Positions 1,853 through 57,400 of a stretch of DNA of 57,400 nt are shown here, piece by piece. The notes under the pieces are model-generated. The model searched no databases. It worked only from the letters and a program-made list of their open reading frames with translations, and had not been told where the DNA came from. This DNA is from a virus: the IMG/VR virus record IMGVR_UViG_3300018432_000015, positions 1 through 57,400 of that record; one strand, given 5' to 3'. Made by a program: the position numbers and the translations under genes. The stretch's first letter is position 1; each line of letters begins with the position of its first letter.

Positions 1853-2351
1853 GTGGAAGGAGCCGGCGGTGCCGCGCACCGTCGTCCAGATGGCGCCGGT
1901 GGACAAGAACGGCATGGTGCTCGTGATGCACCGCGGACCAAACGTTCGGTCGATCCCGAACGTCTGGTCGTTTCCGTCAGGCATGCACGAGATCGGTGAG
2001 CGAATGGAAGAGTCGCTCGAGCGCGAGCTCCGCGAGGAGTACGACTTGCAAGCTATCGACTGCGCGATGGTCGGCCAGTACGAGAACATCGCGGGCGACT
2101 TGTGGGACCAAGAGCAGTACCACTGGGTGATCTCGCTTTACGTCGCGCTCGTCGAGGACGTCAAGAAGGCTGTCAACAAGGAACCAGACAAGCACGACCG
2201 AATGGAGTTCGTGCACTACACTGACTTGGTGACGCCGGCGTTCTGGGACGCGCATCGCTTTCACAACTCGTTTCACGAAGAGATGCGCGAAGGTCGGCAC
2301 CGACTGGCGTTGGCCGCGCAGACCCTCGTCCTCAAGGAAGTGATCGAATGA
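1833..2351 (+). CDS. Nudix hydrolase
   Basis: A 172-residue Nudix-family protein. The Nudix box is at residues 50-72: G50, E56, R64-E65-L66, E68-E69, with Asp71 where the family usually has Gly. The E68/E69 metal-binding glutamates are intact. Nudix enzymes hydrolyse nucleoside diphosphates linked to another moiety X (dNTPs, NDP-sugars, NAD or RNA caps). The substrate cannot be read from the sequence. Its position directly before a cytosine methyltransferase-like gene and a dCMP-modifying TS homologue would suit nucleotide-pool control, for example removal of an unmodified dNTP, but that is inference. It overlaps the next gene by 4 bases (ATGA). Confidence 0.88.
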   Translation: MPTQKNKWKEPAVPRTVVQMAPVDKNGMVLVMHRGPNVRSIPNVWSFPSGMHEIGERMEESLERELREEYDLQAIDCAMVGQYENIAGDLWDQEQYHWVISLYVALVEDVKKAVNKEPDKHDRMEFVHYTDLVTPAFWDAHRFHNSFHEEMREGRHRLALAAQTLVLKEVIE

Positions 2352-3586: not shown

Positions 3587-4526
3587 CTCGATGTGGGCCG
3601 CGATGATCGACCACCTCCTCATGCATCCGACGCATGTTGAGGCACGAGTGGGCAGCGGGGCGATGAGCAATGAATTGATCGGGAGTCGCTGGGTGTTGAA
3701 GGACATCCGACGCAACTTCTTGACCAACGAGAGTCGCGCGGCCGATCCCGCGTACGCGAGCGCGGAGCTGCTGTGGTATCTCAGCCGCGAGAGCAGCGTC
3801 GAGATGCTGCTGCCCTACGCGCCGAGCTACAAGCGGTTCGCCGAGGACGACGGGCGCGCGCACGGCGCGTACGGTTCGCGGCTGGCGACAAACATTCAAG
3901 CATACAGACTTGCCAGTCGTAGCGAAGACAAAGAAAGCTGCGACCAGCTCGACTATGCTGTGCAGCGACTGCGACGTGACCCGAACACGCGACAGCTCGT
4001 GATCACCATGTGGAAAGCGGAGGACTTGATCACCGAGAACAAGCGCGATCTTCCTTGCACGGTGTGTTGGCAGTTCCTCGTGCGCGAGAACAATCTGCAT
4101 ATGGTCACGTACATGCGGTCCAATGACGTTTGGCTCGGTGTCCCGTACGACATCTATACCTTCTCGTGTATCCAATCTATGGTGGCCGACTCGCTCGGAC
4201 TCGGCTACGGAACGTATACGCACGTCGCCGGGTCGCTGCACATGTACGAGAAGAATCGCGACGACTGCTTCAACATACTGGAATACGGACCGCTGACGCC
4301 GACGCCACCACACGGATGGGAGCGATGCCCAGTAGAGGACGCCTGGATGGCCGTGGAGCATGAGAAATGCATACGAAAACAAGAACCGCGACCGAATCGA
4401 CCGGCCGTCCACGGGTGCTTGCTGGACTCCGTCATGTCGTGTGCAAGAAAGCTGGGCTTGCCCACGGACGTTCGCTCTCCAGCACTAACGAAAGGGTTTC
4501 AGAATGTTGACGCCCGTCGCTCTTAA
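3564..4526 (+). CDS. Thymidylate-synthase-family enzyme, probably dCMP hydroxymethylase or methylase
   Basis: A 320-residue TS-fold protein. The GTG at 3564 follows GGAGAG and overlaps the methyltransferase gene. Catalytic Cys165 lies in LPCTVCWQF, followed by the nucleotide-binding stretch RSNDVWLGVPYDIYTF and then GSLHMYEKN, which keeps the His and Tyr of TS. The position equivalent to E. coli Asn177 (PFNIASY) is Asp196 (PYDIYTF). Asp there is the hallmark of enzymes using dCMP rather than dUMP, such as T4 gp42. The genome also has ThyX for dTMP, so this enzyme is free to be dCMP-specific. Hydroxymethyl versus methyl product cannot be decided from sequence. The C-terminal tail (after about residue 270) is not TS-like and overlaps the inserted HNH gene. 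Confidence 0.85.
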   Translation: MNSYDDVDSMWAAMIDHLLMHPTHVEARVGSGAMSNELIGSRWVLKDIRRNFLTNESRAADPAYASAELLWYLSRESSVEMLLPYAPSYKRFAEDDGRAHGAYGSRLATNIQAYRLASRSEDKESCDQLDYAVQRLRRDPNTRQLVITMWKAEDLITENKRDLPCTVCWQFLVRENNLHMVTYMRSNDVWLGVPYDIYTFSCIQSMVADSLGLGYGTYTHVAGSLHMYEKNRDDCFNILEYGPLTPTPPHGWERCPVEDAWMAVEHEKCIRKQEPRPNRPAVHGCLLDSVMSCARKLGLPTDVRSPALTKGFQNVDARRS

Positions 4527-5591: not shown

Positions 5592-5914
5592 CAACTGAAC
5601 ACTTGATGACGGCCATCTGGACCGTCGTCCGCGAGGACAAGCTCGACATCCTGTGGCATGGCACGGCCAGACTCTTGGCCGCGCTGCGCCGCCGCGAGAA
5701 GTACGTCGAAGTGGCGGACTTCATCGAGGCCAAGATGGCGCGCGACGATCGGATCACCAAGAGCGCATTCATTCGCGCGCTGTTCGACTACTTCAAGGAT
5801 CAGCGAGTCATCGAGGCTCTGGACGACGCTCACAGGTGCAACCGTGAAGACGCTACCAAACGGCGGAAGGCTGGTCGAGCATCCAAGCGAATTGCCCGAC
5901 CTAAGAAACGCTGA
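5588..5914 (+). CDS. Hypothetical basic protein, 108 aa
   Basis: The TTG start at 5588 is supported by AGGAGG (5578-5583) and overlaps the kinase stop. The protein is helical and charged, and ends in a strongly basic tail (KRRKAGRASKRIARPKKR) that could bind nucleic acid. It overlaps the polymerase gene by 71 bases. I recognise no family. Position between dNMP kinase and DNA polymerase suggests a replication-associated role, which is inference only. Confidence 0.65.
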   Translation: MTTEHLMTAIWTVVREDKLDILWHGTARLLAALRRREKYVEVADFIEAKMARDDRITKSAFIRALFDYFKDQRVIEALDDAHRCNREDATKRRKAGRASKRIARPKKR

Positions 5915-7871
5915 TGACTTGTTCGGCGACTTCGAGACGACGAGTTGCGACGACGAGCTCGACTCGCTGAACCCGTGGCATCACTGTTGGGCGCTCGGAA
6001 TAGCTGTCACGACAGACAAGCACCAGGGCGCATGGTACGTGCCGCTCCGTCACCGACTCTACGGCGACGAGCAGAACATCCCGATTGAGATAGCGCGCGA
6101 GTGGTGGGCCGACACGCTGGGCACGGCTCGGTGCTGGTCCAATCACAACGTCAAGTACGACGCGCATGTCTCGGCCAACGACATGGGCTACGTTCCTGAC
6201 TGGCCGGAACAACAGCTCTTCTGCACGGTCGCGCACTCGAAGATCATCGACAGCGATCGACACTTCCGCGGCGGGTACGGGCTCGACGCGCTCAGCTTGT
6301 CTTGGCTGGGCGAGGACATCTCGGTGTACGGAGCGCTCATTGACCGATGGCGAGCGATCGGCAAGAAAAAGAGCAAGGACTTCGGTCGCATTCACATGAA
6401 CGACTGCGCGCTCTACGCGTGCCAGGATGTCATCACCAACAAGCGACTCAAGCGGTACATTCAAGCGCAACGTCATCCGGACTGCAACAGGGTGGCCGAG
6501 ATCGAGACGGACTTGACGTCGGTGCTCTTCGAGATGGAGCGCAACGGCATGCAGGTGGACCGGCTCGAGCTGATGAAGACCGAGCTCGAGATGTCGATGC
6601 GGCTTTTGCAGATCGACGAGATCATCAAGAAGCGAGTCGGGCGCTCGGTGAACTGGTCGAGCACCGATGACTTGTACGACCTGCTCATCAATCAGTTCGG
6701 CTTGCCGATTCTCGCGTGGACTGAAGAAGACGAAGAGGGACAACCCGCCGGCAATGCGAGCTTCGACAAGCACGCGCTTGCGGAATACGCACGTCATCCG
6801 CACGCGCCGCACGACGTGGTCGCACTGATTCAAGAGGCACGCTCGGCCACGCAGACGCTCGGGTTGTTTGTTCGGCCATACCAAGAGCTGGCCGATTCGC
6901 GCGGGCGCATGCACGGAGACTTCAATCAGACCGTACGTACCGGCCGCATGTCGATGCGTCGACCGAATCTCCAGCAGTGCAGCAGTGTGGCAAAGCGACT
7001 CATTCATCCGGCGGTGGGCAACGCGTTCTTGTCGGCGGACCAAAGTCAAATCGAATTTCGAGTGATCGTTCATTACATCGAGAATCAGCGCTGCATCGAC
7101 GTCTACAATTCAGACCCGGACACTGACTTCCATCAGTGGGTGGCGGAGTCGGCGGGCATGAAGCGAAAGCCGGCCAAGACGATGAACTTCATGATGGGCT
7201 ACGGTGGCGGCAAGAAGAAAGCCGTACGCGCGATGGCCAGCAACTTGAATGTGATCGGCGGCATCGTCGGCACGATCGACCAGATGGTGGCCGATGGGCG
7301 ACTGAACGAGAGCGATCGCTTGCGCGTGTTCGACATGATGTGCGTGCAGAAGGGCGAGGAGCTGTACGATGGGTACCATCGCAATTTACCCGAGCTGAAG
7401 CCGACGTCGCGCCGAGCAGCCGCCGTCTGCGCCGAGCGCGGGTACGTACGGAACTGGCACGGACGACATCGTCACTTGCCGAAGGACCACGCGCACAAGG
7501 CGTTCAACTCTCTGTGCCAAGGCGAAGCGGCCGACATCCAGAAGGAGCGCACGGTCGCGCTCGCCCGCGCGATCGAAGGAACGGAGCTGATGCTCGTCGG
7601 CAACGTTCATGACGAGATCGTCGTCGAGGGTCCCGCTGAATTGCTGGCCGACGAGCGGACGCAGCGAGCCATCGCTTGGATTCTCGAAACGCCCGACAAG
7701 CCACTGCGAGTTCCGCTCCGCACGGGAGTCGGAGTGAGCACTCAGCATTGGAAAGAGGCCAGCACCGACGCGAAAGATGGCGGAGCGAGCCGACCGATTC
7801 AATATGATGTTGGTCAGATCGACCGCGATGAGCCGCTGAGATTTCTGAAAAATGTTCGATTGTTAACATAG
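5844..7871 (+). CDS. polA: Family A DNA polymerase with 3'-5' exonuclease
   Basis: A 675-residue polymerase. The GTG at 5844 is chosen because the proofreading domain begins soon after; the frame stays open upstream but there it overlaps the previous gene out of phase. The exonuclease motif I is D29-x-E31 (FGDFETT). Polymerase motif A is SADQSQIEFR (Asp399), motif B is KPAKTMNFMMGYG, and motif C is NVHDEIVVEG (H589-D590-E591). There is no 5'-3' exonuclease domain, as in T7-type replicases. Motif A has Gln where most family members have Tyr (DYSQIE). The motif B Phe is retained, unlike the Leu or Tyr variants of some phages. This is presumably the replicative polymerase working with the primase-MCM protein. 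Confidence 0.93.
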   Translation: MKTLPNGGRLVEHPSELPDLRNADDLFGDFETTSCDDELDSLNPWHHCWALGIAVTTDKHQGAWYVPLRHRLYGDEQNIPIEIAREWWADTLGTARCWSNHNVKYDAHVSANDMGYVPDWPEQQLFCTVAHSKIIDSDRHFRGGYGLDALSLSWLGEDISVYGALIDRWRAIGKKKSKDFGRIHMNDCALYACQDVITNKRLKRYIQAQRHPDCNRVAEIETDLTSVLFEMERNGMQVDRLELMKTELEMSMRLLQIDEIIKKRVGRSVNWSSTDDLYDLLINQFGLPILAWTEEDEEGQPAGNASFDKHALAEYARHPHAPHDVVALIQEARSATQTLGLFVRPYQELADSRGRMHGDFNQTVRTGRMSMRRPNLQQCSSVAKRLIHPAVGNAFLSADQSQIEFRVIVHYIENQRCIDVYNSDPDTDFHQWVAESAGMKRKPAKTMNFMMGYGGGKKKAVRAMASNLNVIGGIVGTIDQMVADGRLNESDRLRVFDMMCVQKGEELYDGYHRNLPELKPTSRRAAAVCAERGYVRNWHGRHRHLPKDHAHKAFNSLCQGEAADIQKERTVALARAIEGTELMLVGNVHDEIVVEGPAELLADERTQRAIAWILETPDKPLRVPLRTGVGVSTQHWKEASTDAKDGGASRPIQYDVGQIDRDEPLRFLKNVRLLT

Positions 7872-11566: not shown

Positions 11567-11754
11567 AACTTCTCAACCCACGATACCTCGGCGACGGTGT
11601 CTACATCACACTGTTGCCCGAGCTCGACAGCGTCATGCTGACGACCGGCCATCATGACGAAATGAATCCACAGTGCGAGAACGTCATCATCTTAGGACAC
11701 GCGGAGTTCAGCAATATGTTGCAATACTTACGAGAGGCAGAGGTGATCAAGTGA
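11563..11754 (+). CDS. Hypothetical protein, 63 aa
   Basis: A small protein beginning KLLNPRYLGDGVYITLLPELDS and continuing with LTTGHH. The pattern LGDGVYI...LTTGxH is one I associate with small conserved phage proteins of unknown function. It is translationally coupled at both ends, with the ligase GTG overlapping its stop. Confidence 0.75.
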   Translation: MKLLNPRYLGDGVYITLLPELDSVMLTTGHHDEMNPQCENVIILGHAEFSNMLQYLREAEVIK

Positions 11755-12707
11755 AACTCAAATGTAAAGTGGCCGCGCCGGGCGTCGTCGCTCGGTATGC
11801 ACAGGTGAAATTAGATGGTCACTGGGTGAGAGTGTCCCGGGGCGGCGTCGACATCAAGGTCGAGACATCGCACCCGACGGACATCACCGATCAGCTACCA
11901 GAACACATCTACGCAGCGCTATGGGAGAACCTGCCGCGGCACTCGGTCGCGCTCGGCGAGCTGTGGGTCCCCGACAAGCCGGCCAGCTGTGTCAAGACGG
12001 CGCTGAAGGGAAAGTGGCCGGAGCTCCAGATCACGTTCTTTGCGCTCGAGCAAATGGCCCCATCGTCGACTCGGCACATCGAGATCATGCCGCTCGAGGA
12101 AGTGCGACAATGGTTCGATCACTACAAGCTCAACTTCGCGCCGTTCGAGGTCATCGACGCGGTCCCGGTCGAGCTAGGCGAGGGTCAGCTCGAGCACTAC
12201 CGAGCACGGGCTCGCAGCATGGGTATCGAAGGCTGGGTGCTGAAGACTGGCAATCTGACCGGATGGCACAAGCTGAAGTGCGAGAACTCGATCGACGTCG
12301 TCGTCACGGGCGTCAAAGACGCTAAAGACGGTAAGTATCTCGGCCAAGTGGGATCGCTGCTGGTGAGCGTCACCGGCGACGGCGGCTTGAACTGGAACGA
12401 AATCGCGGCGGTGTCCGGGATGACCGACCGCGAGCGACTGAACATCACGGAGAAGTACGACGAGCTCGCGAGCAGCATCATCGGCAAGGTCTGCGAGATC
12501 GAGTACCAGCGCATGGACGCGCAGGGCCGACTAAGACATCCAAGATTCAAGCGATGGCGCGACGACAAGCCGGCCAAAGAGTGCGGCGTGGACCAGGACC
12601 CGGACCTGGAGCGCCGCTACGCGCGAGGCATGCGATTCGTCGAGACCGAGCCGATCAAGTTCATGCAAATCACGCCAGGAGCAGAACATGACGCAGGGCA
12701 TCAATGA
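11751..12707 (+). CDS. ATP-dependent DNA ligase
   Basis: A 318-residue ligase. The GTG at 11751 is chosen because it overlaps the previous stop and places the catalytic motif at a normal distance. Motif I is K20-L-D-G (VKLDGHWVRV), with Lys20 the predicted AMP acceptor. Further motifs are ALGELW (motif III region), EGWVLK (motif IV) and WHKLK (motif V), followed by an OB-fold region with GKVCEIEYQR near the C-terminus. It seals nicks using ATP and matches compact phage ligases in length. A host ligase is not needed for replication if this works. Neighbours are nucleotide and DNA-metabolism genes. Confidence 0.92.
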   Translation: MKLKCKVAAPGVVARYAQVKLDGHWVRVSRGGVDIKVETSHPTDITDQLPEHIYAALWENLPRHSVALGELWVPDKPASCVKTALKGKWPELQITFFALEQMAPSSTRHIEIMPLEEVRQWFDHYKLNFAPFEVIDAVPVELGEGQLEHYRARARSMGIEGWVLKTGNLTGWHKLKCENSIDVVVTGVKDAKDGKYLGQVGSLLVSVTGDGGLNWNEIAAVSGMTDRERLNITEKYDELASSIIGKVCEIEYQRMDAQGRLRHPRFKRWRDDKPAKECGVDQDPDLERRYARGMRFVETEPIKFMQITPGAEHDAGHQ

Positions 12708-12948
12708 GGTCCTCGCTCTCGGAGCGCGCTGTAAGACTCACAAGATCACCGTCTCGATGACCGCGATATGGCCGCGCGGCGTCAAGACGACATTGACTGC
12801 CGAGCCACGCATGAAGTACCCACTCGGCGAACCTTACGTCGGTCACTTCACGATCTTCGAAGTGGAGGATCATATGGCCGACAAGCATGACGAGATGTTG
12901 AAGAAGCTCGTCATGGACATGGAGACAAAGCTATGCTGTGCGCGCTGA
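12688..12948 (+). CDS. Hypothetical protein, 86 aa
   Basis: ATG after CAGGAGCAG, overlapping the ligase end by 20 bases. Mixed alpha/beta pattern with a C-terminal Met/Lys-rich helix (ADKHDEMLKKLVMDMETKL). No family recognised. It overlaps the tiny membrane-protein gene at 12933. Confidence 0.65.
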   Translation: MTQGINEVLALGARCKTHKITVSMTAIWPRGVKTTLTAEPRMKYPLGEPYVGHFTIFEVEDHMADKHDEMLKKLVMDMETKLCCAR

Positions 12949-13058
12949 TGACGGGAGCGCTCGGGATCGCGGTGTTGATTTCGCTGCTCTTCACGATGGG
13001 ACGACACAAGGCGCGCAGACGGTCTGCGCGCTGGCTTCGCGACTTGGAGAAAAGATGA
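12933..13058 (+). CDS. Tiny membrane protein, 41 aa
   Basis: A short gene with GGAG eight bases before the ATG at 12933. One hydrophobic segment (residues 3-22, rich in L, I, V, A, G) is followed by a very basic tail (GRHKARRRSARWLRDLEKR). By the positive-inside rule the C-terminus should be cytoplasmic. Its TGA overlaps the ThyX ATG (ATGA), which supports its reality. It could be a small early inner-membrane protein. No known family. Confidence 0.6.
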   Translation: MLCALMTGALGIAVLISLLFTMGRHKARRRSARWLRDLEKR

Positions 13059-13930
13059 TGAGACCCAGGACTTTCTTGGTGGGAGTGACGCAGCCGGACT
13101 TCGTTGGGCTGCAAGCGTATCTCGATCACACGGATCAAAGCGAATTCATGTTCGAGATCAGCGAGTATTTGGCCGAGCGACCCGGCGACCCGCTGTGCCT
13201 CGTGTCTTTCTATGCGAAGCTCTGCTACAAGAGCCTCGTCGAGGGCAAGAACGCAAACGTGACGCGGGTACGCTCGATCGAAGACAACTTGATCGCGACG
13301 ATAAAGTCCGGCCACGGAAGCGTGTTCGAGCACGTGTGGCTGAACTTCGTCACGACGGGATGCTCACGAGTGTTCACGCACGAGCTGGTCCGGCACCGTG
13401 TTGGGACGGCGTTCTCGCAGACAAGCGGGCGCTACGTGGCGATCGACAAGATCGACTTGGTCTTGCCACCAGAGCTGGAGAACGACGAACAGATGCACAC
13501 TTGCCCGAATTGCCAAGGGCGTGGTCCGATGCAAGACATGTTGCCGTGCGAATGGTGTCATGATCGCAGCCAGATCACCGTCGCAGAGTACATCAACATC
13601 TGCAACGTCGCTCAGACGAACTCGCTCAAAACGCTGCGTGAGATGCTCATCAAGCCCGACATGCCATTTGCTGAGAAGAAGCGACTCACCAGCGCGATCC
13701 GGCGGCTCGCTCCGAACGGGCAGGACAATGAGATCGGCTGGTCGTGCAATGTGCGGTCGTTCCGGCACCTGCTGGAGCTGCGCACGTCGCTGGCAGCCGA
13801 GTGGGAGATTCGGCAAGTGTTCTTCGACGTCGCAAAGATAGTCACGCAGCGCTGGCCGATGATGATGTATGGCGTCACTCCAGGCGAAGAAGTCGACGGA
13901 GTGACCGAACTGAAAGGGCTCAGGATATGA
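13055..13930 (+). CDS. thyX: Flavin-dependent thymidylate synthase ThyX with zinc-knuckle insertion
   Basis: A 291-residue protein; start ATG 13055 (or 13058) after TTGGAGA. The ThyX signature is RHRVGTAFSQTSGRY (R113-H-R), preceded by a typical VFEHVWLNF and HELV. The enzyme makes dTMP from dUMP with FAD, NADPH and methylene-THF. Unusually, CxxC pairs at 150/153 and 165/168 (CPNC, CEWC) sit in a DnaJ-like loop shortly after the signature. This would add a zinc site that I do not know from standard ThyX. With a separate ThyX the genome does not need its TS homologue for dTMP. Overlaps genes on both sides. Confidence 0.9.
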   Translation: MMRPRTFLVGVTQPDFVGLQAYLDHTDQSEFMFEISEYLAERPGDPLCLVSFYAKLCYKSLVEGKNANVTRVRSIEDNLIATIKSGHGSVFEHVWLNFVTTGCSRVFTHELVRHRVGTAFSQTSGRYVAIDKIDLVLPPELENDEQMHTCPNCQGRGPMQDMLPCEWCHDRSQITVAEYINICNVAQTNSLKTLREMLIKPDMPFAEKKRLTSAIRRLAPNGQDNEIGWSCNVRSFRHLLELRTSLAAEWEIRQVFFDVAKIVTQRWPMMMYGVTPGEEVDGVTELKGLRI

Positions 13931-22621: not shown

Positions 22622-25600
22622 ATGACCAGAACAAAAACATCATTCACGACGCTGTTCGCGACAGCCATCCTGTCGCTGCTGTGCGGCCACGCTCACGCCC
22701 AGCTGGCAAGCAACCTGGTTTCATATTGGTCGCTCGATGAAGCCAGCGGCAACGCGATTGACGCGCATGGGGCGAATGACCTGACCGACACCAACACTGT
22801 CGGTTCTGCCGCTGGAAAGGTCGGCAACTGTCGCGACTTTGAGAAAGATGCGAATGAATATTTTTCAATCGCCGACAACGCTGGCCTGCGCACAGGCGAC
22901 ATTGACTTCTCTTTTGCCGCATGGGTGAAAATGGAGTCCAAAAACTCCTTCCCCCAAATTCTTAGCAAATGGGGCGGGAGTGGCGATGCCGAATACGCGC
23001 TTGGCTACGAATCTGGGAGCGACCGACTTTCTTTTTCGGTGTCCTCTACCGGAAGCAATACGGTGACGGCTGTTGCTAACACCCTCGGCTCTCCATCCAC
23101 CGGAACATGGTACTTCGTGGCTGGCGGCCACAATGCGACCACGAACGAAATCTGGATTTCCGTAAACGCTGGAACACCGAACACGACTTCACACTCAGCA
23201 GGTGTTGCTGTTGGCGCTGCTCCATTCCTTATTGGCGAACTGGGCGGCTTCGTTGGCCTGGCAGGCGGTGAGTGGGACGGTCTTATTGACGAGTTGGGGT
23301 TTTGGAAGCGAGACATCCGCAGCGACTTGTCGGAGTTGTACAACGCCGGGTCTGGACGGGACTACGACTACATCATCAATGGGCCTTCATTCGCAGCCGG
23401 CACGCTATCTCTAGTATCTAAAGCAAACACCAGCATTACGGGCTCTTGGACCGCCGCTACCGATGGCGTCGGAACTGTCACCAATCAGTTGCAAATCGAC
23501 GATGGTGGAGGATGGGACGACGTAACTGGCGCGACTAGCAGTCCCGGCACGGCGACGGGGCTGACCGACGCCACCGAATATGATCTTCGCGTTGCCTACA
23601 TCGACGACAATGAAACGGTTTACAGCAACACGGTCACGGTCACGACCGAGGCCGACCCGACGCTCGTTGCTACTCAGATTACGCTTGTCGCCCAAGGCAC
23701 AACCACAGCCACGCTCTGCGCTCATCCGGTCGGCGGCATCAAAAGCGATTCGGCAACCTATCAGTGGTATCGGTCAACCACTCAAGGCTTCACGCCGGGC
23801 GGCGGCAATATCATCAGCGGGGCGACTTCGCGCACGATCTCTGAGACAGGACTAACTAGCAACACGCTGTATTACTACGTGCTGCGGGCGACCAAATGGG
23901 GTGTCACAGTTGACTACCCAGAGTTCGACGTTCTCACTCGTGGGGCCGCGGTTGGCCTGCCAGTTGTGGACGACACCTCTGGCACAAACGGCGTGAACAA
24001 CACGCTGGCCGGAACCGTCACCTGGAATCATACGTGCAGCGGGACGAATCGCGGGCTGTTCGTGTCGCTACATCAAGTCGTCGATCCGGGGGTTCCGGTC
24101 ACTGCTACTTATGGCGGCGTTTCGCTGGTCCCGTTCGCTTGGCGGGCTTACGGTGGCGGCGTTTTCAACATCTTGTTCAAGCTTGTGAATCCGCCGCTGG
24201 GTGAACATGCGATCGTCGTCAACTGGGGCCACGTCGAGGGCGGTTATCAGCCGGTGTTCTCGGCGATCTCCGTAAAGGATTGGGACACGATTGCGCAGCA
24301 CGGTCAGATAACGATCTCGCCTTCCAGCACTGGCGATCCCGTCTCGCTAACGCTGAGTGATTATGAGGCTGGCGACCTTGCTTTAGGCATCGCCACTGCT
24401 GGTGCAAATCTCTTGGAAGGCGCTGGCATGGCGCTGGCAATTGAGCAGGCCAGTGAAAGTTCCGGTGCCTATACGTCTATCGTCACCGCCACGCAAGCGG
24501 GACTCTCTTGGACCGGCACTGGCGGCGGCGGTTGGGTGGTCGTCGGCATGTCGCTGAGTCCGGTTGGATCGGGCGGCACGCGACCCGTGCCGGCCATTGA
24601 GCGCTTCGAGGAGCGGATGGTTGGTGGTGCTGACGGTCAAGCCGCGGGGGCTATCACAGCCTACGACAACTGGCAACTCAACGAAGACCCGAATGAGGAT
24701 GAAGTGACGGATGTGTGGGGTGAAAACGGGGATTACACCTTCTACTACGCCGGGACGAAGGTGCTTTACGACATCGGGGATTACCTCGGAGTCACGACCT
24801 ACGACGAAGGGGCAACCAAACAGTTGTACGTTCGAGATCGGGCATACGAGCAGCCGACTGGGTACTTCATAGGTGGCAAGACTTGGGAAATTTTCACCGA
24901 CTCAGCAACCGTTGACCATGCGAACACGAGCGATGCGAATGATTTGGTGATTGTTGAGGGACTGCGGGACACGCCGCCATACGCAGCAGACGGTCAGACC
25001 GCGCTGGAAAGCACAGCACTCAGCCGCGAGAACGCCTATCACCTGATGTCGCACCTGAATGGTGACATCCTGGGGATCGCGGCTCGCACTACGAAAAAGA
25101 ACGAGCTAATCGCCAACGCCAAGAGCCACATGGTTCAGTGGTTCACGACCCGAACATGGGTTGGGGTGGACGAGCAATTCTCGCCCTTTATGGTTGGGCT
25201 GACCGCTGAGGCGCTGATTCGCCACCATGCAGTGACCAACGATCCTGAAGTTCTGCCACTCATCAAGGCCGCCTGCGACTATCTCTGGGACGACGCTTGG
25301 GACCCCGAAACTCTGGGGATGCTCTACCAGCTCAACGACGACGCGAGCCCCGAACAAGGCGGGCCGCGATACACGAGCGGTAGCCCTGTGCTCAACAACC
25401 TCATCGCCAAAATGTATGCCTGGGTCGCCGTCCAAACCGGCGACCAAGCCCAGATGGATCGTGCCGAGTGGCTGTTTGCCGGTTCTGCGATCAACGGAGC
25501 TTACCTATACGGCAAGCAGTTCAATCAGGCGCATTGGCTCACGCTGGGTTCGACTGGCACGCTGGCCATGCGGGAAGAGTTTTATGAACCGGAGGCAGGG

Positions 25601-25720
25601 CCGCTTCCAAGCACGAACACCGGCGACCGCATGCGCAAACTACTGCGGCCATTCTGCCCGCCTGTCTTCCCGCGTCGTCGCCGTCGCAAGACTGAAACAG
25701 ACACCGCAACTGCTGCTTAA
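22622..25720 (+). CDS. Large secreted or fibre-like protein with LamG domain
   Basis: A 1032-residue protein. Residues 1-26 are a signal peptide ending HAHA, followed by a LamG/concanavalin-like domain (about 28-240: VSYWSLDEASGN, SFAAWVKM and LIDELGFWKRDI are typical). Fn3-like beta domains follow (about 255-430), then a beta-rich part, then after about residue 660 a helical domain resembling an alpha/alpha toroid (LMSHLNGD, AYLWDDAWD-type stretches). The C-terminus is basic (FPRRRRRKTE). Carbohydrate binding or receptor recognition is likely. A Sec signal on a phage fibre is unusual, and the ATG lacks a clear Shine-Dalgarno. The style resembles secreted proteins of Planctomycetes or Verrucomicrobia, suggesting host-derived import. 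Confidence 0.75.
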   Translation: MTRTKTSFTTLFATAILSLLCGHAHAQLASNLVSYWSLDEASGNAIDAHGANDLTDTNTVGSAAGKVGNCRDFEKDANEYFSIADNAGLRTGDIDFSFAAWVKMESKNSFPQILSKWGGSGDAEYALGYESGSDRLSFSVSSTGSNTVTAVANTLGSPSTGTWYFVAGGHNATTNEIWISVNAGTPNTTSHSAGVAVGAAPFLIGELGGFVGLAGGEWDGLIDELGFWKRDIRSDLSELYNAGSGRDYDYIINGPSFAAGTLSLVSKANTSITGSWTAATDGVGTVTNQLQIDDGGGWDDVTGATSSPGTATGLTDATEYDLRVAYIDDNETVYSNTVTVTTEADPTLVATQITLVAQGTTTATLCAHPVGGIKSDSATYQWYRSTTQGFTPGGGNIISGATSRTISETGLTSNTLYYYVLRATKWGVTVDYPEFDVLTRGAAVGLPVVDDTSGTNGVNNTLAGTVTWNHTCSGTNRGLFVSLHQVVDPGVPVTATYGGVSLVPFAWRAYGGGVFNILFKLVNPPLGEHAIVVNWGHVEGGYQPVFSAISVKDWDTIAQHGQITISPSSTGDPVSLTLSDYEAGDLALGIATAGANLLEGAGMALAIEQASESSGAYTSIVTATQAGLSWTGTGGGGWVVVGMSLSPVGSGGTRPVPAIERFEERMVGGADGQAAGAITAYDNWQLNEDPNEDEVTDVWGENGDYTFYYAGTKVLYDIGDYLGVTTYDEGATKQLYVRDRAYEQPTGYFIGGKTWEIFTDSATVDHANTSDANDLVIVEGLRDTPPYAADGQTALESTALSRENAYHLMSHLNGDILGIAARTTKKNELIANAKSHMVQWFTTRTWVGVDEQFSPFMVGLTAEALIRHHAVTNDPEVLPLIKAACDYLWDDAWDPETLGMLYQLNDDASPEQGGPRYTSGSPVLNNLIAKMYAWVAVQTGDQAQMDRAEWLFAGSAINGAYLYGKQFNQAHWLTLGSTGTLAMREEFYEPEAGPLPSTNTGDRMRKLLRPFCPPVFPRRRRRKTETDTATAA

Positions 25721-27240: not shown

Positions 27241-29256
27241 GTGCCATCGCAGGGACCATACAGTCCCGCCAGCATTGTAAATAACAATACTGGCGGATTG
27301 ACCAACTGCCCTTGGGTCAATCCTTCCAACGCTGGCGCGTCAGACAACGCGTATGCCGAATCGGGAGTATTGCCCGGCGGCGGCACGTTCAGCAACCTAT
27401 CTGACTTTCTAGTCGCCACTGACTTTGGCTTCACAATTCCAACGAATGCCACAATCGATGGCATCTTGGTCGAAGCCGAAGTAAGCACCGACACGACGGG
27501 TGATGTCGTTCGCTTTCGCGCGAATCTCAAGAATGTTGGCGGTGGCAATCGCGACAAGAACCCGTACACAGTTCCAGGAAGCGACACGTATGAGTCTTTC
27601 GGCGGTGCCGCAGACTTGTGGAGCTCGTCGGCTATATATTCAGGAGTGAACTCAAGCACTTTTGGTGTTCAGTTTCAGCTCGCGTCTATTGCCGCTGGCG
27701 GTGACGCGCTGAATTTCCCAGTCAAGTGCGATCACATTCGCATAACGGTGTACTACACCGAAGCGACTATCACCAACAAGAACGCCGCTGACTCGCTCGA
27801 TGTTCAATTCTCCAGTGAGGCAGGTTCGCCGCGCTTCATAGATGCAGATGCAGACACGCTGGCGAGCGCAATCAGTGAAGCAGAAGTCGCGACAGTCAAG
27901 CCGTCTTCGACTGATTCGCTGGCAGTTGCTATCACCGATGCTGGTGCATTCATCGCAAAGCCGGTGTCGACCGACACACTATCTGTCGCACTGAGCGAAA
28001 CGGAAGACGTGACAGTAGGGCCGCTCGACACCGACACGCTCAATGTAGCGATCAGCGATGATCAGGTTGTTGGCATCGACGGGCTCTTCACCAGCACCGA
28101 CGCGCTCGCTATATCGCTCAACGAAGTAGAGTTTGCCGGATCATTCACGCCCGACAGTGACAGTATCGCCGTCGCGTTCAGCGATGAAGATACCGACTTG
28201 CTCATCACGACGCACAAGTCGGCGAACGACACAGTGTTGTCTGAGATTAGCGACGAGTTCGGTCATGACTTTGGACGCGTCGAGACTGACACGTTGTCTG
28301 TCGCGATCACAGAGTCGCAGCTGGCGACCGGCATCTTCGCTGAAGCGGATACGCTAGCATCATCGATGGCCGAAACAATGCTCGCGATCGAGCGACATCC
28401 GGACACTGAATCGCTCGCCGTCGCGATCGCTGACGCACCGCTGACCGGCATCACCGTTCACAACGACGATGCGCTCGGCGTGCGCATCGGCGATGCAGCC
28501 GTGTACGGCGTCATCATCTTTGAGGACGATGCTGACATCGACGTCGCGATCACTGAGACGCTCACGTACGAACGCGCTTGGATTGTATTCGACGCGATCG
28601 ACGTCACAGTGACCGAGACTCACACTACAAGCGTCGATGCATTCGGTGGCGACTTCGTCAACGTTCGACTAGCCGATATGCCGCTCGCGACGCGCGCGCT
28701 CGGTGACGCGGACGCGCTGGCTGTCGTGATCGTCGATGTCGGTACGGCAGTCGGAACCACGCACGGCACAGACGCGTTGGCGGTTGCAATCGCGGATGTC
28801 GCCACCGACGAAGAGATTCCGTTTGTCAAGACGCAGGGCGATGCTCTGTCTGTCACACTCCCCGAAGCCACGGCCATCGCTCGAGAGACCGCAGCCACTG
28901 ACGCGATGGCCGTGGCGATCGGAGAGGTTTGGTCGACTCAGTATGTCGCATTGGCTGGTGCGGACACGCTCGCTGTTGCACTGAGCGAGTTGGCTGCGGT
29001 TTCGCGCGAAGTGACGACAGCTGATGTGCTTGCTCTCTCGCTGGCCGAAGCCACCACGCCGCTCACGCTGAGACTTGTCGGCATCGATGCGCTCGGCATC
29101 GCGTTCCAATACGAGACGCCGATCATCTTTACTGCCGGTCCTGTCGTCGACTCGTTTATCTTCGAGTTCGTCGCGCCGGTCGTTGAAGCTGACCTCGAGC
29201 TCGCGCAACTGTTCAATGCGGATGTGATCTTGCAGGGACCAAGAAAGCGTCTCTAG
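27241..29256 (+). CDS. Repeat-built fibre protein, 671 aa
   Basis: GTG start at 27241, preceded by AGGGTAAG. Residues 1-180 form a globular beta domain (VNNNTGGLTNCPW, ATIDGILVEAEVSTD and HIRITVYYTE). Residues about 185-625 hold roughly 22 repeats of about 20 residues built on D-[TAS]-[LIM]-x-V-x-[IL]-x-[DE], for example DTLSVALSE, DSLAVAITD and DALAVAIAD, separated by variable linkers. Regular short strands like this usually form an elongated beta shaft. A short C-terminal segment ends GPRKRL. It is likely a tail fibre or head fibre. Repeat number could vary by recombination. No signal peptide is present. Confidence 0.75.
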   Translation: MPSQGPYSPASIVNNNTGGLTNCPWVNPSNAGASDNAYAESGVLPGGGTFSNLSDFLVATDFGFTIPTNATIDGILVEAEVSTDTTGDVVRFRANLKNVGGGNRDKNPYTVPGSDTYESFGGAADLWSSSAIYSGVNSSTFGVQFQLASIAAGGDALNFPVKCDHIRITVYYTEATITNKNAADSLDVQFSSEAGSPRFIDADADTLASAISEAEVATVKPSSTDSLAVAITDAGAFIAKPVSTDTLSVALSETEDVTVGPLDTDTLNVAISDDQVVGIDGLFTSTDALAISLNEVEFAGSFTPDSDSIAVAFSDEDTDLLITTHKSANDTVLSEISDEFGHDFGRVETDTLSVAITESQLATGIFAEADTLASSMAETMLAIERHPDTESLAVAIADAPLTGITVHNDDALGVRIGDAAVYGVIIFEDDADIDVAITETLTYERAWIVFDAIDVTVTETHTTSVDAFGGDFVNVRLADMPLATRALGDADALAVVIVDVGTAVGTTHGTDALAVAIADVATDEEIPFVKTQGDALSVTLPEATAIARETAATDAMAVAIGEVWSTQYVALAGADTLAVALSELAAVSREVTTADVLALSLAEATTPLTLRLVGIDALGIAFQYETPIIFTAGPVVDSFIFEFVAPVVEADLELAQLFNADVILQGPRKRL

Positions 29257-29265
29257 AGTACAATA
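29256..29265 (+). promoter_or_regulatory. Late-type element GAGTACAATA (29275 gene)
   Basis: GAGTACAATA overlaps the stop codon of the fibre gene and lies ten bases before the ATG at 29275. It matches the core of the elements at 26351 and 40691. GTAGGATG provides a weak ribosome site. Confidence 0.5.
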
Positions 29266-29274
29266 GATCGTAGG

Positions 29275-29604
29275 ATGGACTACATCAAGCGCGGCGACGA
29301 TTTCCAGTTCCTCGCCAAGTCGGTGCACAGCCGTCGCACGCAAGCACTCCTGCCATCGGCAACGGTGGCGTGGCGCTTGATCACGAAAGGTGGCGCGGCG
29401 TTAGGAGCCGGAAGCACCGGCAACATGACGCAGTATGATGTCGACAACAATCATTTCGAAGCGTTTGTCCCGCGCGCGCTCACGGCCACGCTGGACAAGT
29501 ATGGTCAGTATGTCCTCGAGATCGTCGTCACCAATTCCGGCCTCCAGACCACCAAGCAGATAGAGCTCACCGCTGTGGATGTCGTCCCAGCGGTCGCACC
29601 ATAG
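29275..29604 (+). CDS. Hypothetical structural protein, 109 aa
   Basis: Product begins MDYIKRGDDFQFLAKSV and contains ATVAWRLITKGGAALGAG, then strand-rich segments with KYGQYVLEIVVTNSG. The pattern (GDDF...W.L...Y.LEI) looks like the small Ig-like or baseplate-wedge domains found in phage structural proteins. Specific role unknown. Confidence 0.65.
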   Translation: MDYIKRGDDFQFLAKSVHSRRTQALLPSATVAWRLITKGGAALGAGSTGNMTQYDVDNNHFEAFVPRALTATLDKYGQYVLEIVVTNSGLQTTKQIELTAVDVVPAVAP

Positions 29605-29614
29605 GAGAAGCAGC

Positions 29615-29830
29615 GTGGAAGCGAACATCGAGGCCTTCATCGCCGGCGAGGGCAACGCCGTTACGTTCAGCCGGAACGAGACCGACCATGTCTTGTGCGT
29701 TGCGCGCGTGGGCGAAGAGGGAGCAACGTACGAAGGTGTCGGCAATACACCGTTCGCCGCGTTGTTCACCGCCGCGACCAAGGCACAGCAAGAGACGACG
29801 CGCAGTGCGAATCCTCATCTCGAGCCATGA
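29615..29830 (+). CDS. Hypothetical protein, 71 aa
   Basis: The GTG at 29615 is chosen because AGGAG precedes it by seven bases. Beta-hairpin-like stretches (NAVTFSRNETDHVLCVARVG) followed by a helix (NTPFAALFTAATKAQQET). No family recognised. Its stop overlaps the ATG of the metallopeptidase gene. Confidence 0.65.
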   Translation: MEANIEAFIAGEGNAVTFSRNETDHVLCVARVGEEGATYEGVGNTPFAALFTAATKAQQETTRSANPHLEP

Positions 29831-30693
29831 TCGAAGACGCACAGATCATCGAGTGGTTGCTTCGCTACGGCTATCTTCCCAAGGAAGAAGCTCTCGGCGC
29901 CGCATTGACTCTTCAAGACAATGTCGTGCGCGATGCCGTTGCTCATGCGCAAGAGTTCGGCTTCTATCCGCTCAACGCAATCTGCATGCTGCGTCACGGG
30001 CGTCCATTGACTTCCGACGGCGACATTGGACCGGCCACTCGAGAGCTCTTCTCGCTCGAGCGCTGCGAGGTCCCTGACTTCGGCTCGATGAGCGGACGCG
30101 GTGGTGGTGGAAGCTGGCCGATCCTGTGCCAGAAGAGCGGCATCAAGATGTTCGTCGACTTGACGAACTGTCCCGTACGCGAAGCATGGCCGCAGATACT
30201 CGTCGACGTCGTCGAGGCGTATCGTTTGATGGGTCTGCGAGTCATACAAGTCAACTCGCTCGCGGAGTGCAACGTCCATGTGTACTGGCGCTCGTTCTTC
30301 GGCGGCACCATCGGGTTGGCCGAATTCAACGGCCGCACTTGCGTCGACCGCGTGTTCTGCTCGATGAGCATGTCGTATCGCGGTGAGAATCGCGGCCTGT
30401 TCAAGCACGAGTTCGGACACAACTGCAACTTGAATCACACGCGCGGCGGCACGATGAACCCGTACATCATCGCCGAGCAACACCCGAGAGCATTCTGGAC
30501 TCCGGGCGATCCCAGCTATTCAACACTTGTTCGATACTTCGATGGCATTCCAGTCGGCGAGCCGGGCCCGGGCCCGGGTCCGGGTCCGGGTCCGGGTCCG
30601 GTCGATCCGCCGCCGCCACCGCCACTGCCCACACCTGAACCACGTCCGCGCCGTCCGCTGTTGGACTGGTTGTGGAAATGGTTCTCCACTTGA
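29827..30693 (+). CDS. Matrixin-like (metzincin) metallopeptidase with cysteine-switch propeptide
   Basis: A 288-residue protein. An N-terminal helical PG-binding/propeptide-like domain ends with GDIGPATRELF and LERCEVPDFG (Cys80), which parallels the matrix-metalloproteinase cysteine switch (PRCGxPD) that blocks the zinc. The catalytic motif is H194-E-F-G-H198-N-C-N-L-N-H204, a complete metzincin HExxHxxxxxH, followed by GTMNP (Met-turn, Met210). After about residue 240 come a Gly-Pro repeat, a Pro-rich linker and a Trp-rich tail (LLDWLWKWFST). No signal peptide is visible. A virion-associated or secreted peptidase acting on host surface protein or at lysis is likely; a self-inhibited zymogen in a phage is unusual. 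Confidence 0.82.
   Translation: MIEDAQIIEWLLRYGYLPKEEALGAALTLQDNVVRDAVAHAQEFGFYPLNAICMLRHGRPLTSDGDIGPATRELFSLERCEVPDFGSMSGRGGGGSWPILCQKSGIKMFVDLTNCPVREAWPQILVDVVEAYRLMGLRVIQVNSLAECNVHVYWRSFFGGTIGLAEFNGRTCVDRVFCSMSMSYRGENRGLFKHEFGHNCNLNHTRGGTMNPYIIAEQHPRAFWTPGDPSYSTLVRYFDGIPVGEPGPGPGPGPGPGPVDPPPPPPLPTPEPRPRRPLLDWLWKWFST
30562..30600 (+). repeat. Hexamer tandem repeat encoding Gly-Pro linker
   Basis: Six tandem copies of CCGGGC or CCGGGT (two then four) followed by CCG encode alternating Pro and Gly in the metallopeptidase. The repeat can expand or contract in steps of two residues without shifting the frame. Confidence 0.9.
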
Positions 30694-50492: not shown

Positions 50493-51110
50493 ATGACGGA
50501 AGCATTCATACGATCGGTCAAGCTCGTCACGGCGGGCAAGATGCAGTTCCAAGTGGTGGACTGCAAGACGGGCAAAATTCTGCGGATGGCGAGCTGCTCG
50601 CTTCCGAAGCTGGTCAACGGCATGCGAGCCGAGGCCGCCGGATCGCACAAGGCACGGGCACTGCTTGCTCGCTGGTGCATGAACAACGGTGTGATGATGG
50701 TGGACGAGCCGAAGATGATCATCTGCGAGCAGGAAGACACGACTGCTCGCGCCGTGCGGCTCGTGGAAGAGAAGCGTGTTGATCGCACGCTGGTCATTCT
50801 CGACGAGAGTCACGATGCCAGTCCCGCCATCAAAGCCGCGCTGCTTGACATGCGCTCGGGAGGCGGTCGCGCGGCGATGAAGCGACAAGACTTCGTTACT
50901 GGCAATCAAGCGTACGTCGTGCTCGGCGGCGAATGGGAAGGTTGGGTTGAGATCGTCAGCATCGACGACGACGGCGAGTACTTCGAGTTCAAGTGGCCGA
51001 AGGACGTCTATCGCGGCATCACGGCGCCATGTGAACGAATCGACGCGAGTCTCAGCTACATTGCTTCGCTCCAAGAAATCAGCTATGACCGGTCAGGAGG
51101 TGGCCGATGA
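50493..51110 (+). CDS. Hypothetical protein, 205 aa
   Basis: ATG at 50493 after the leader. Mixed alpha/beta with SVKLVTAGKMQFQVVDCKTG at the N-terminus, then VDRTLVILDESHDASPAIK and a C-terminal strand-rich part (GEWEGWVEIVSID). I recognise no domain. It is coupled to the SNF2 helicase gene by a 4-base overlap and could be a partner of it. Confidence 0.7.
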   Translation: MTEAFIRSVKLVTAGKMQFQVVDCKTGKILRMASCSLPKLVNGMRAEAAGSHKARALLARWCMNNGVMMVDEPKMIICEQEDTTARAVRLVEEKRVDRTLVILDESHDASPAIKAALLDMRSGGGRAAMKRQDFVTGNQAYVVLGGEWEGWVEIVSIDDDGEYFEFKWPKDVYRGITAPCERIDASLSYIASLQEISYDRSGGGR

Positions 51111-53092
51111 GAGCGATGTCCGACGCTACAGCAGCGATGCTGACGCCGATCAACCTCTCGCCGACTGACCGGCTCGAGCTCGAGATCGACAAGGAGCAGA
51201 AACGCTTCCGCGCGCGAGTGTTCGGCGCGGAATCAAACGGCATGCGGAACTGGCCGAGCATCACAGCCCGCCAAGCGTGGCAGGCCCGCATTCCCGAGAA
51301 GAAGCAGCTCGACGGTGCGAACCTCTGGCAGATCGCAGCCACCGACTACACCGCCGAGATCATCAACGCGACGTGGCCGAAGGACCAGCTCGTCTTCGCC
51401 GACGAGAAGTCACGCTTGGTGTTCGCTGGACTGCTGCTCGAGACTACTATACAGGACCAGATTGCCGAAGCATACGCGCAGTTCAAATTCAACGGCACAC
51501 TGCCCGACGAATGCGACGAGCTCGAGCTTCATCCGAATCCTCTGCTTCAGCTCAAGGGCTACCAGAAGTTCGCGCTGTGGGCTTCGATGCGAGCTCGCGG
51601 CTACAATCTGTTCATGGAGCAAGGAACGGGCAAGACTCCCGTCAGCGTCGCTCGCATCATGAACGAGTGCCGTCGCAATAGACTGGCTGGCGACGATCAC
51701 ATGCTCCGCGTGCTGGTCGTCTGCCCGAAGAACGTGCGGCTGAACTGGCAGCGAGAACTGTGCAAGTTCTGCACGCGACCCGGCAAAGTGGAGATCATCA
51801 AGGGCGGCTTCATGGACCGCACGTCGATGATCATCGAAGCGATGCTGCCCGACGGCGACTCGCAGTGGTCGGCCTGCGTGATGTCCTACGAGGGAATGTG
51901 CAAGACATGGGAGACCCTCGAACACTTCCAGTGGGACTTGGTCATTCTCGACGAGGGTCACTACATCAAGTGGCCGCTTACGCAGCGAGCGCAGTACTCG
52001 TTCAAGCTGCGCGAGGTGGCGAAGTCTCGTATGGTGCTGACAGGCACGCCCATCTGCAATTCACCGCTTGACATCTACTCACTGTTCGAGTTTGACGGCG
52101 AGGGTTGGTCCGGCTTCCAGGACTACAAAGCGTTCAAGGAGTTCTACGGAGTGTTCGTGCCGACGGACGGCGACGGTCACTCGAAGCTCGTCGCGATTCA
52201 GAACAAGCCGTTCATGCAAGAGCGGCTCGCTCGGACGTCGTTCATCATCACGAAGAAGGAGGCTCTGCCTGACCTTCCCGAGAAGGTGTACGACGTCATC
52301 GAGGCAGATATGACCGATCAGCAGCGCAACGCGTACGCGGCGCTGGCCGAGAAGATGCTGCTCGAGATTGAGAGCGAAATGGCCGACACTCGCAACAAGA
52401 CGATGACAGTGCAAAACATCCTGACGAAGCTGCTTCGGCTCGCTCAGGTCTGCGCCGGCTATGTCGTCTGGGACGAAGTGGTCGACCCGAACTCGCTCGA
52501 GGTAGTCCAATCGAAGAGCCTCGAATACTTCGAGAAAAACCCGAAGCTCGACGAACTGGTCGCGCAGCTGAAGGACAAGACGCCGCAGCAGAAGACGATC
52601 GTGTGGGCCTGCTTTGTTCCGGCCATCAAGCAGATCAGCGAGCGGCTCACCGCCGAAGGCATCCGTCACGTGACGTTCTACGGCGGCACGAAGGACGACG
52701 ATCGTGCCGAGGCGGAACGGTTGTTCAACTATGATCCTGACGTGCGAGTGGTCGTCGCGAATCCCGCCGCCGGCGGCACCGGGCTGAACCTGCTCGGCCA
52801 CCCGCCGGACGTCGAAGAGAGCCGCAACGTCGATACCGACTGCGACCACCACATCTACTATGCGTGCAACTGGTCCTACGTCCAGCGCGCGCAGAGCGAA
52901 GATCGGTCGCACCGGATCGGCACGCGCAAGTCGGTGAGGATCAGCGACCTCGTCATACCCGAGACGCTGGACGAGGACATCCGCGTGCGAGTCCTCGAGA
53001 AGAAATTGATGGCTCTCGACATCGCCGACATCCGGGAGATACTTCAGTCTGTGATAACGGGACTGGGAAAGAGAGGGTCCGATGAGACCTAG
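51107..53092 (+). CDS. SNF2-family DNA helicase/translocase
   Basis: A 661-residue superfamily 2 protein. LKGYQKFALWASMRARGYNL is the SNF2 Q-motif-like entry, MEQGTGKT is motif I (Lys176), LVVCPKNVRLNW is motif Ia, VILDEGHYIKW is motif II (DEGH), and MVLTGTPICNSPLDIYSLF is motif III. The C-lobe has TIVWACFVPAIKQI, NPAAGGTGLNLLG (motif V-like) and QRAQSEDRSHRIGTRKSV (motif VI, QxxxRxxRxG). SNF2 proteins move along duplex DNA to remodel complexes; phage versions assist replication or recombination. Promoter and leader are upstream at 50422. Confidence 0.9.
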   Translation: MRAMSDATAAMLTPINLSPTDRLELEIDKEQKRFRARVFGAESNGMRNWPSITARQAWQARIPEKKQLDGANLWQIAATDYTAEIINATWPKDQLVFADEKSRLVFAGLLLETTIQDQIAEAYAQFKFNGTLPDECDELELHPNPLLQLKGYQKFALWASMRARGYNLFMEQGTGKTPVSVARIMNECRRNRLAGDDHMLRVLVVCPKNVRLNWQRELCKFCTRPGKVEIIKGGFMDRTSMIIEAMLPDGDSQWSACVMSYEGMCKTWETLEHFQWDLVILDEGHYIKWPLTQRAQYSFKLREVAKSRMVLTGTPICNSPLDIYSLFEFDGEGWSGFQDYKAFKEFYGVFVPTDGDGHSKLVAIQNKPFMQERLARTSFIITKKEALPDLPEKVYDVIEADMTDQQRNAYAALAEKMLLEIESEMADTRNKTMTVQNILTKLLRLAQVCAGYVVWDEVVDPNSLEVVQSKSLEYFEKNPKLDELVAQLKDKTPQQKTIVWACFVPAIKQISERLTAEGIRHVTFYGGTKDDDRAEAERLFNYDPDVRVVVANPAAGGTGLNLLGHPPDVEESRNVDTDCDHHIYYACNWSYVQRAQSEDRSHRIGTRKSVRISDLVIPETLDEDIRVRVLEKKLMALDIADIREILQSVITGLGKRGSDET

Positions 53093-55982: not shown

Positions 55983-57400
55983 ATGGCTCGGAAGCTGACG
56001 GAAATCTCGGTCATCGCTGAACTCGAACGCGCGGGCGTTTACTACGAGTACAGCGGCTCCGAAGACGTCAAGATCAAGTGTCCGTTTCACGACGATGAGA
56101 ATCCGTCGTGTGACGTTTCGATCCACAAGCGGCTTTTCAAATGCAAAGCCGCCGGCTGCCGTGTCAACAAAGGCGACATAGTCACGCTGCTATCGGGCAT
56201 CGTCAATCGTCCGAGAGCTGTCGTCCTTGAAGAACTGGCCACTCGCTATGACCTCGGCGACGTCAAGATCGTTGAGATGGAAGTGATCATGCGGTGGCAC
56301 GCGGCCATCTGGCCAGCCGGGCCGCTGCTGAGCGAACTGCGGAAGCGAGCCGTCACCGACGAGGACATCCGACAGTACTTCCTGGGCGAAGACCAGGGAC
56401 GCATAACGATACCAATCCCGAACGAGCGCGGCGACTACGTCAATGTGCGTCGCTATCTGCCCGGCGCACCCGGCAACGAGAAGATGAAGAACCTGCGTGG
56501 CCGTGGGTCCGCGCTGTGGTTCCCGGTCGAGCAGCTGAAGTACGATCACGTGCTGCTCTGCGGCGGCGAGATGAAAGCTATTGTAGCCGCCCGGCTGCTG
56601 AATCCGCACGGCATCGGCGCGGCGTGCATGACCCTCAACGAGGACTTGCTCCCGTCGCATCTGCTCAAGAAGCTGGCCGGAAAGCGAGTGGACGTCTGTT
56701 TCGACATCGACTCGCACGGTCGCATCGCCGCCGAGAAGAACTGCATCGCGCTGGTCCCGCTGGCTTCTGAGACGCATGACATACTGCTGCCGCTGGACAT
56801 CGAGAAGCATCCGAAAGGCGACATCAACGACTTCGTGGCAGAGGGCGGCGATCTATATGACTTGCTGCTGAAGAGCGATCCGTGGTCGGGTCCCGCGCGC
56901 GGCTTGCAGCTGCGCGACGAAGACCCGGTCAAGCTGCACATGTCTGAAGCAATACGCGCCAAGAACGCGGCCAGGCGAGTCTCGGTCACCGGCCTGGTCA
57001 CGGCCATGGTAGACGCGCCGTACGTCGTGCCCAAGACGGTCATCGTCAAATGCGATAAGTCCATGAACTTCTGCTCTCTCTGCCCAGTCTGGAACTCGAC
57101 CGATGCGAAGTTCGACATACATCCCGAGCACCCGGCGATTCTTTCGATGGTGTCGGCTACTAAGAGTCAGATTCCTGAGGCCATCATGGAGGGCGTCGGC
57201 ATCCCGCGAATGTGCCGCGTATGTGAGTTCGACGTCGAGAGCTATTTCAACGCCGAGGACGCACGACTGAGCCCGCAGCTCGAGATCACCGAGCGCGCAG
57301 CCGACCAGAAACTACAGCCAGCGATATGCATCGGAGAGGGACTCGAGCTCAACGAAGCGTACGAATTAGTTGGCCGGATGTACCCGCACCCGAAGACACA
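55983..57400 (+). CDS. Primase-helicase fusion, N-terminal part: CHC2 zinc finger and TOPRIM primase, MCM N-terminal-like region
   Basis: ATG follows the previous stop directly. A CHC2 zinc finger holds C33-PFH36 and C54...C59 (KCPFHDDENPSCD, then FKCKAAGC). A TOPRIM domain follows with CGGEMKA (Glu196) and the FDIDSHG acidic pair (D241, D243). Then DINDFVAEGG ends the primase half. Residues about 290-520 have two cysteine pairs (C364/C367 and C411/C414) and strand-rich stretches like the zinc-bearing OB domain of MCM proteins. The frame runs off the edge and continues at base 3 (end stop 1418), giving about 941 residues. It synthesises RNA primers and unwinds the fork. DnaG-type primase joined to MCM rather than a RecA-type helicase is unusual. 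Confidence 0.88.
   Translation, partial: MARKLTEISVIAELERAGVYYEYSGSEDVKIKCPFHDDENPSCDVSIHKRLFKCKAAGCRVNKGDIVTLLSGIVNRPRAVVLEELATRYDLGDVKIVEMEVIMRWHAAIWPAGPLLSELRKRAVTDEDIRQYFLGEDQGRITIPIPNERGDYVNVRRYLPGAPGNEKMKNLRGRGSALWFPVEQLKYDHVLLCGGEMKAIVAARLLNPHGIGAACMTLNEDLLPSHLLKKLAGKRVDVCFDIDSHGRIAAEKNCIALVPLASETHDILLPLDIEKHPKGDINDFVAEGGDLYDLLLKSDPWSGPARGLQLRDEDPVKLHMSEAIRAKNAARRVSVTGLVTAMVDAPYVVPKTVIVKCDKSMNFCSLCPVWNSTDAKFDIHPEHPAILSMVSATKSQIPEAIMEGVGIPRMCRVCEFDVESYFNAEDARLSPQLEITERAADQKLQPAICIGEGLELNEAYELVGRMYPHPKT
57391..57400. repeat. Right copy of 10-base terminal overlap
   Basis: CGAAGACACA, identical to bases 1-10. Removing one copy joins codons K-T from this end to Q-Q-S-T in the first bases without a frame change. 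Confidence 0.85.

Follow-up and report, generated by a model that had tools for sequence, protein, structure and literature searches.

A DnaG-type primase and an MCM helicase encoded as one phage gene across the ends of a genome record

Two incomplete reading frames, one at each end of a phage genome record, raise the question of whether they are halves of a single gene and, if so, what kind of replication protein this gene encodes. The window analyzed here is the whole 57,400-bp virus record IMGVR_UViG_3300018432_000015, for which an initial annotation had proposed a DnaG-type primase fused to an MCM-like helicase and split by the record ends. The first frame begins with an ATG at 55983 and reaches the window end without a stop codon, while the second runs without interruption from base 3 until its stop codon at 1418. 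Comparison of the ends revealed an exact 10-bp overlap, CGAAGACACA, whose copies (57391-57400 and 1-10) would be the same bases in the closed molecule. This is the sole exact end overlap among lengths of 3 to 299 bases, and the probability of a random exact overlap of at least 10 bases is about 1e-6. Plain end-to-end concatenation places the halves in different frames and gives a 571-aa product. Removal of one 10-bp copy, however, leaves a single ORF of 941 codons on the plus strand, which runs from 55983 to 57400 (residues 1-472 plus two bases of codon 473, in an open frame) and then from 11 to 1418 (the rest of codon 473 to the stop), in a closed genome of 57,390 bp. The 941-residue product predicted initially is right, given collapse of the overlap, which that prediction had omitted; the frame is indeed open at base 3, where the continuation had been placed, but the joined gene resumes at base 11.

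Relatives of the gene support this junction. The circular 56,278-bp phage genome MW202657 carries the same gene unbroken at 27488-30334. With an alignment as query, 384 IMG/VR stretches were found to carry a relative of the gene, and the best 80 of these were examined; both protein parts lie in one ORF in 72 of the 80, the other eight leaving the contig end, and 68 complete ORFs were retained for sequence comparison. Across the join, 30 residues align without gaps in 74 of 75 relatives, with a mean identity of 48%, as illustrated by window GRMYPHPKTQQSTLLISKY aligned with GRMYPHPKTQQTTLLISKY of relative L016. Furthermore, the protein family PHROG 18685 is matched at positions 378-547 by the 3' end of the window and at 546-1007 by its 5' end. 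Because the end overlap restores the frame and the relatives carry the gene uninterrupted, the join was accepted; these sequence comparisons confirm that the window ends are contiguous, as had been supposed, and that the primase-MCM is one gene. The same gene in Bacillus phage BSTP10 (L133, 3335-5451) is cut by the ends of a record marked as circularly permuted and thus appears only as a misc_feature.

By profile and predicted fold, the N-terminal half is a DnaG-type primase. A CHC2-type DnaG zinc ribbon, already recognized as a zinc finger in the initial annotation, is encoded at 56061-56252 (plus strand, residues 27-90) and matches Pfam PF01807 at 1.4e-8, with 34.9 bits against a cut-off of 24.9; its zinc ligands C33, H36, C54, and C59 are conserved in 54-56 of 56 aligned rows. 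It is followed at 56280-56882 (plus strand, about residues 100-300) by a DnaG RNA-polymerase domain with the TOPRIM fold. Although the Pfam TOPRIM models score below their cut-offs on the window protein, the TOPRIM domain claimed at the outset is clear from the family profile and from the fold. Over the TOPRIM part, this profile matches 2au3, 1nui, and 5vaz, and it reaches Aquifex DnaG at 3.7e-21 and T7 gp4 at 1.1e-7. An AlphaFold2 model built from the window’s own N half (pLDDT 92.1) has Aquifex DnaG, Twinkle, S. aureus DnaG, and T7 gp4 as its top Foldseek matches in the PDB (E-values of 9e-13 for 2au3 and 2.7e-7 for 4e2k). These primase matches are followed by MCM N-terminal domains, aligned over about 160 columns.

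The TOPRIM site itself has changed. The catalytic EGxxD of motif I is absent from the window, where the variant GGEMK stands in its place (56562-56576, plus strand, from alignment and profile); in the profile alignment, G194 falls on the first glutamate of the T7 gp4 EGEID and K198 on its aspartate. The DxD of motif II (D241 and D243; 56703-56711, plus strand) is retained in 56 and 55 of 56 rows, and the aspartates of the third acidic motif, GDIND (D280 and D283; 56817-56831, plus strand), in 53 and 51. In the same rows, G195-E196 of motif I is invariant and DxD nearly so. Among 76 sequences, motif I reads GGExK in 54, EGExK in 10, and EGExD in nine. The window and its relatives form a drift series from EGExD through EGExK to GGExK, in which GE does not vary. 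Paenibacillus phage SV21 (L009, 4134-6926) encodes a highly divergent TOPRIM-MCM, with a branch of 4.4 and AGEKD as motif I.

Since the window, like most of its close relatives, has G and K where the canonical E and D would stand, catalysis is not assured: in the GGExK branch, either the metal site may have been rewired around E196, or catalysis may have been lost as in animal Twinkle. If it were lost, the primase domain could serve in DNA binding or loading, as in Twinkle, and priming would fall to host DnaG or to transcripts. The drift of EGxxD to EGExK and GGExK (the latter in 54 of the 76 sequences) is in line with loss, as is the appearance of Twinkle as a top fold match; animal Twinkle lost primase activity via changes in its primase domain (PMC3610141). 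Against this stand the zinc ligands, the GE of motif I, DxD, and the third acidic motif, which are 91-100% conserved over the 56 divergent rows, with R156 and K167 likewise kept. Joint retention of the zinc ribbon and the metal site is not what one would expect of a decayed domain, and no other CHC2 primase is encoded. Loss of catalysis in the window branch is consequently judged unlikely, and retained primase activity is clearly favored, because all other site residues and the zinc ribbon are conserved.

The remainder of the protein is, according to sequence profiles and structure models, a complete MCM subunit with an N-tier, an AAA+ motor, and a winged helix. The N-tier is assigned to about residues 315-480 (from 56925 to 57400 on the plus strand, finishing just past the window end), as the N-half model matches MCM N-terminal domains, that of human MCM8 included, and the region is homologous to the N-tier of MCM proteins fused to an archaeo-eukaryotic primase (AEP). 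Cysteines C357, C364, C367, and C411 are invariant in all 56 rows; these are the paired cysteines noted initially, which are present but belong to the MCM N-tier and not to the primase. The motor matches Pfam MCM PF00493 (1.1e-6, 28.4 bits against a cut-off of 23.3). Its motifs, which include every one named in the initial annotation (GDSAQGKT, LVILEE, ISNPRF, and LRRFDVV), stand in MCM order on the plus strand: Walker A GDSAQGKT (294-317, from Pfam and motif alignment), the helix-2 insert region GGVQQLGTGRWMVTWG (399-446), Walker B RLVILEE (468-488, motif alignment), the pre-sensor-1 beta hairpin GIAELAKIEKRRTHA (543-587), sensor 1 ILAISNPRF (597-623, motif alignment), and the arginine finger LRRFDVV at the position of the MCM SRFD (693-713, profile and motif alignment). 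The full-length model is that of relative L013 (pLDDT 90.7, pTM 0.70), in which the strand pairs 596-601/604-609 and 644-647/653-656 form the beta hairpin of the helix-2 insert and the pre-sensor-1 hairpin, respectively. Helices and a beta wing in this model point to a C-terminal winged-helix region at 1134-1397 (plus strand).

An origin of the AAA+ half in another pre-sensor-1-insert family (MoxR, BchI, or DUF927) is very improbable. The motor is divergent, with Pfam MCM E-values of only 1e-3 to 1e-6 for several members, and a few BFVD matches carry MoxR-like names; nevertheless, hmmscan at E<=1 returns MCM alone, PDB profile matches outside the primase part are MCM only, and MCM chains make up all 50 PDB matches listed by Foldseek for the L013 model, mostly over 550-700 columns with the N-tier included. 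The profile test proposed initially for the AAA+ part has thus pointed to MCM, and non-MCM families were rejected on these three lines of evidence. Least probable of all, and already refuted by the relatives, is the existence of separate primase and MCM-like ATPase genes at the ends of a linear genome, unjoined in nature: IMG/VR classes the record as linear and simple concatenation is out of frame, but the 10-bp overlap restores the frame exactly, the N half stops inside the MCM N-tier, the gene is uninterrupted in all relatives, and BSTP10 shows a similar split in a circularly permuted record. Profiles, folds, and relatives thus agree on the proposed fusion of a DnaG-type primase with an MCM-like helicase.

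MCM rings move 3'→5' along the leading strand. As in the window protein, the primase of T7 gp4 and DnaB lies N-terminally, but on a face that trails, and it is the lagging strand that threads the ring. Given these geometries, the DnaG-type primase of the fusion would meet the excluded strand rather than the threaded one. The window protein is probably a one-chain replicative primase-helicase in which a DnaG-type primase is carried by a complete MCM subunit. By analogy with other MCMs, six copies are expected to assemble into a ring that, led by its N-tier face, unwinds 3'→5' along the leading-strand template. The excluded lagging strand would exit beside this face, directly into the tethered primase domains, where the zinc ribbon would read the start site, TOPRIM would make the primer, and the phage PolA-family polymerase would extend it. 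Primer synthesis by a TOPRIM domain with GGExK replacing EGxxD is the least certain of these steps. Fused just before the N-tier, the primase would occupy, within one chain, the position of Pol alpha-primase on eukaryotic CMG, a placement for which part of PMC12593628 offers support. Additionally, BcMCM, a relative of the motor that carries an AEP, acts as a 3'-5' helicase, a primase, and a polymerase (PMC4538821).

The replication genes of the window and its relatives are in keeping with such a role. A DnaB_C search found no DnaB helicase in the window, nor was one found in 14 related viral records, some of which may be fragments, so that absence there is not proof. The window has no match to the AEP primase PF01896. 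Each of the 14 related records has one CHC2 ribbon, and relative G008 encodes one further TOPRIM protein. The window encodes a PolA-family polymerase (5658-7868), and so do 14 of 14 related records; a DNA ligase (11673-12704) and an SNF2-type helicase (51107-53089) are also present in the window. Going by gene names read from translations, SNF2, two small genes, TOPRIM-MCM, MazG, and PolA form a block in a Robiginitomaculum MAG contig (L131), and a similar block occurs in MW202657. From the conserved block, the PolA gene, the lack of DnaB, and the single CHC2 ribbon, we infer that TOPRIM-MCM is most likely the main replicative primase-helicase of PolA-encoding, DnaB-less phages.

Other features of the window were also recorded. 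It encodes two unrelated thymidylate synthases, of ThyA type (PF00303) and ThyX type (PF02511), at 3564-4523 and 12938-13927, and a C5 cytosine-specific DNA methylase (2348-3583) that adjoins a NUDIX hydrolase and a thymidylate synthase. Two long ORFs of 1032 and 671 aa (22622-25717 and 27241-29253) have no Pfam or PHROG match, and the 1032-aa ORF has an apparent signal peptide at its start.

The motor is not always paired with the same primase. In Bacillus phage vB_BboS-125 and in another 34 IMG/VR loci, TOPRIM is replaced by an AEP, which was identified by Pfam PF01896 in vB_BboS-125 and by full-length similarity in the other loci; the MCM N-tier and motor are joined to AEP at L006 (4581-7664) and L093-L127. 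The TOPRIM-MCM N-tier profile matches the AEP-MCM N-tier with E-values of 1e-32 to 1e-36, which indicates that motor and N-tier are common to both and that the primase alone differs. Sequence comparison thus portrays a swap of primases on one motor, TOPRIM on the one hand and the AEP of BcMCM-like prophages on the other. AEP-MCMs form one clade with 100/100 support. The rooted tree nests them among the TOPRIM-MCMs but gives no firm direction for the swap, as its root depends on a very distant outgroup and a topology with a single TOPRIM clade also passes the AU test (p-AU 0.485).

The family is also far from rare, contrary to the initial annotation: hundreds of phage contigs carry the fusion. 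Relatives occur in about 50 phage records (Microbacterium, Bacillus, Weizmannia, Arthrobacter, and Paenibacillus), mostly annotated as primase or primase/helicase, and Microbacterium phage annotators already use the label 'DNA primase/helicase'. All complete proteins checked are TOPRIM-MCM except the AEP clade. A query of the viral contigs with a window half alone found no close relative. In the genome collection, a single-protein search gave no match and an alignment search gave two Robiginitomaculum MAG contigs, insufficient to name a host. In Thermoanaerobacterium phage THSA-485A (CP003186, 32942-33592), a protein annotated as DUF927, the MCM-like helicase family of SCCmec, matches the TOPRIM primase half and is possibly another TOPRIM fusion. 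AEP-MCM fusions have been described (PMC5862659, PMC4538821), TOPRIM-MCM not among them; no description of TOPRIM-MCM was found in the literature searched, and an earlier survey outside that literature may mention it. The architecture is in public genomes yet unnamed, and the window holds one member of a large family.

The fusion unites systems that are usually separate, a bacterial primase and an archaeal/eukaryotic helicase, and could offer a simple, one-gene model for primase placement on the leading side of an MCM ring. We tentatively propose, with confidence falling somewhat short of even, a widespread and undescribed class of phage replisome with DnaG in the leading face of MCM, a working GGExK TOPRIM, and exchanged primases. 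The fusion also provides a natural way to test whether the type of primase and the polarity of the motor are independent, and its conserved TOPRIM change opens a question of DnaG catalysis to direct testing. The results also suggest a function for PHROG 18685, until now annotated as 'unknown function', and show that labels like 'DNA directed DNA polymerase' or 'DNA primase small subunit' need correction.

Among known systems, the AEP-MCMs of BcMCM type (the B. cereus prophage MCM and vB_BboS-125) resemble the window protein in their MCM motor, homologous N-tier, N-terminal primase fusion, and role as a phage replication gene, but their primase is an AEP (PF01896) non-homologous to TOPRIM and they form a separate, 100%-supported clade. 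T7 gp4 and Twinkle share the CHC2 ribbon and RNA-polymerase/TOPRIM primase placed, within a single chain, N-terminal to a replicative helicase; their motor, however, is of RecA/DnaB type and moves 5'→3', whereas that of the window is an MCM AAA+ ring expected to move 3'→5'. Members of PHROG 18685 in Microbacterium phages (Krampusvirus), BSP7 (Bacillus), Youna2 (Weizmannia), and Wollypog (Arthrobacter), none of which is called MCM in the literature searched, have the same architecture but retain the canonical EGExD in motif I, in contrast to the GGExK of the window. Finally, archaeal and eukaryotic MCM with primase share the N-tier, AAA+ motor, and winged helix, with a primase at the N-tier face; there the primase is a separate AEP complex, whereas in the window protein it is a fused DnaG.
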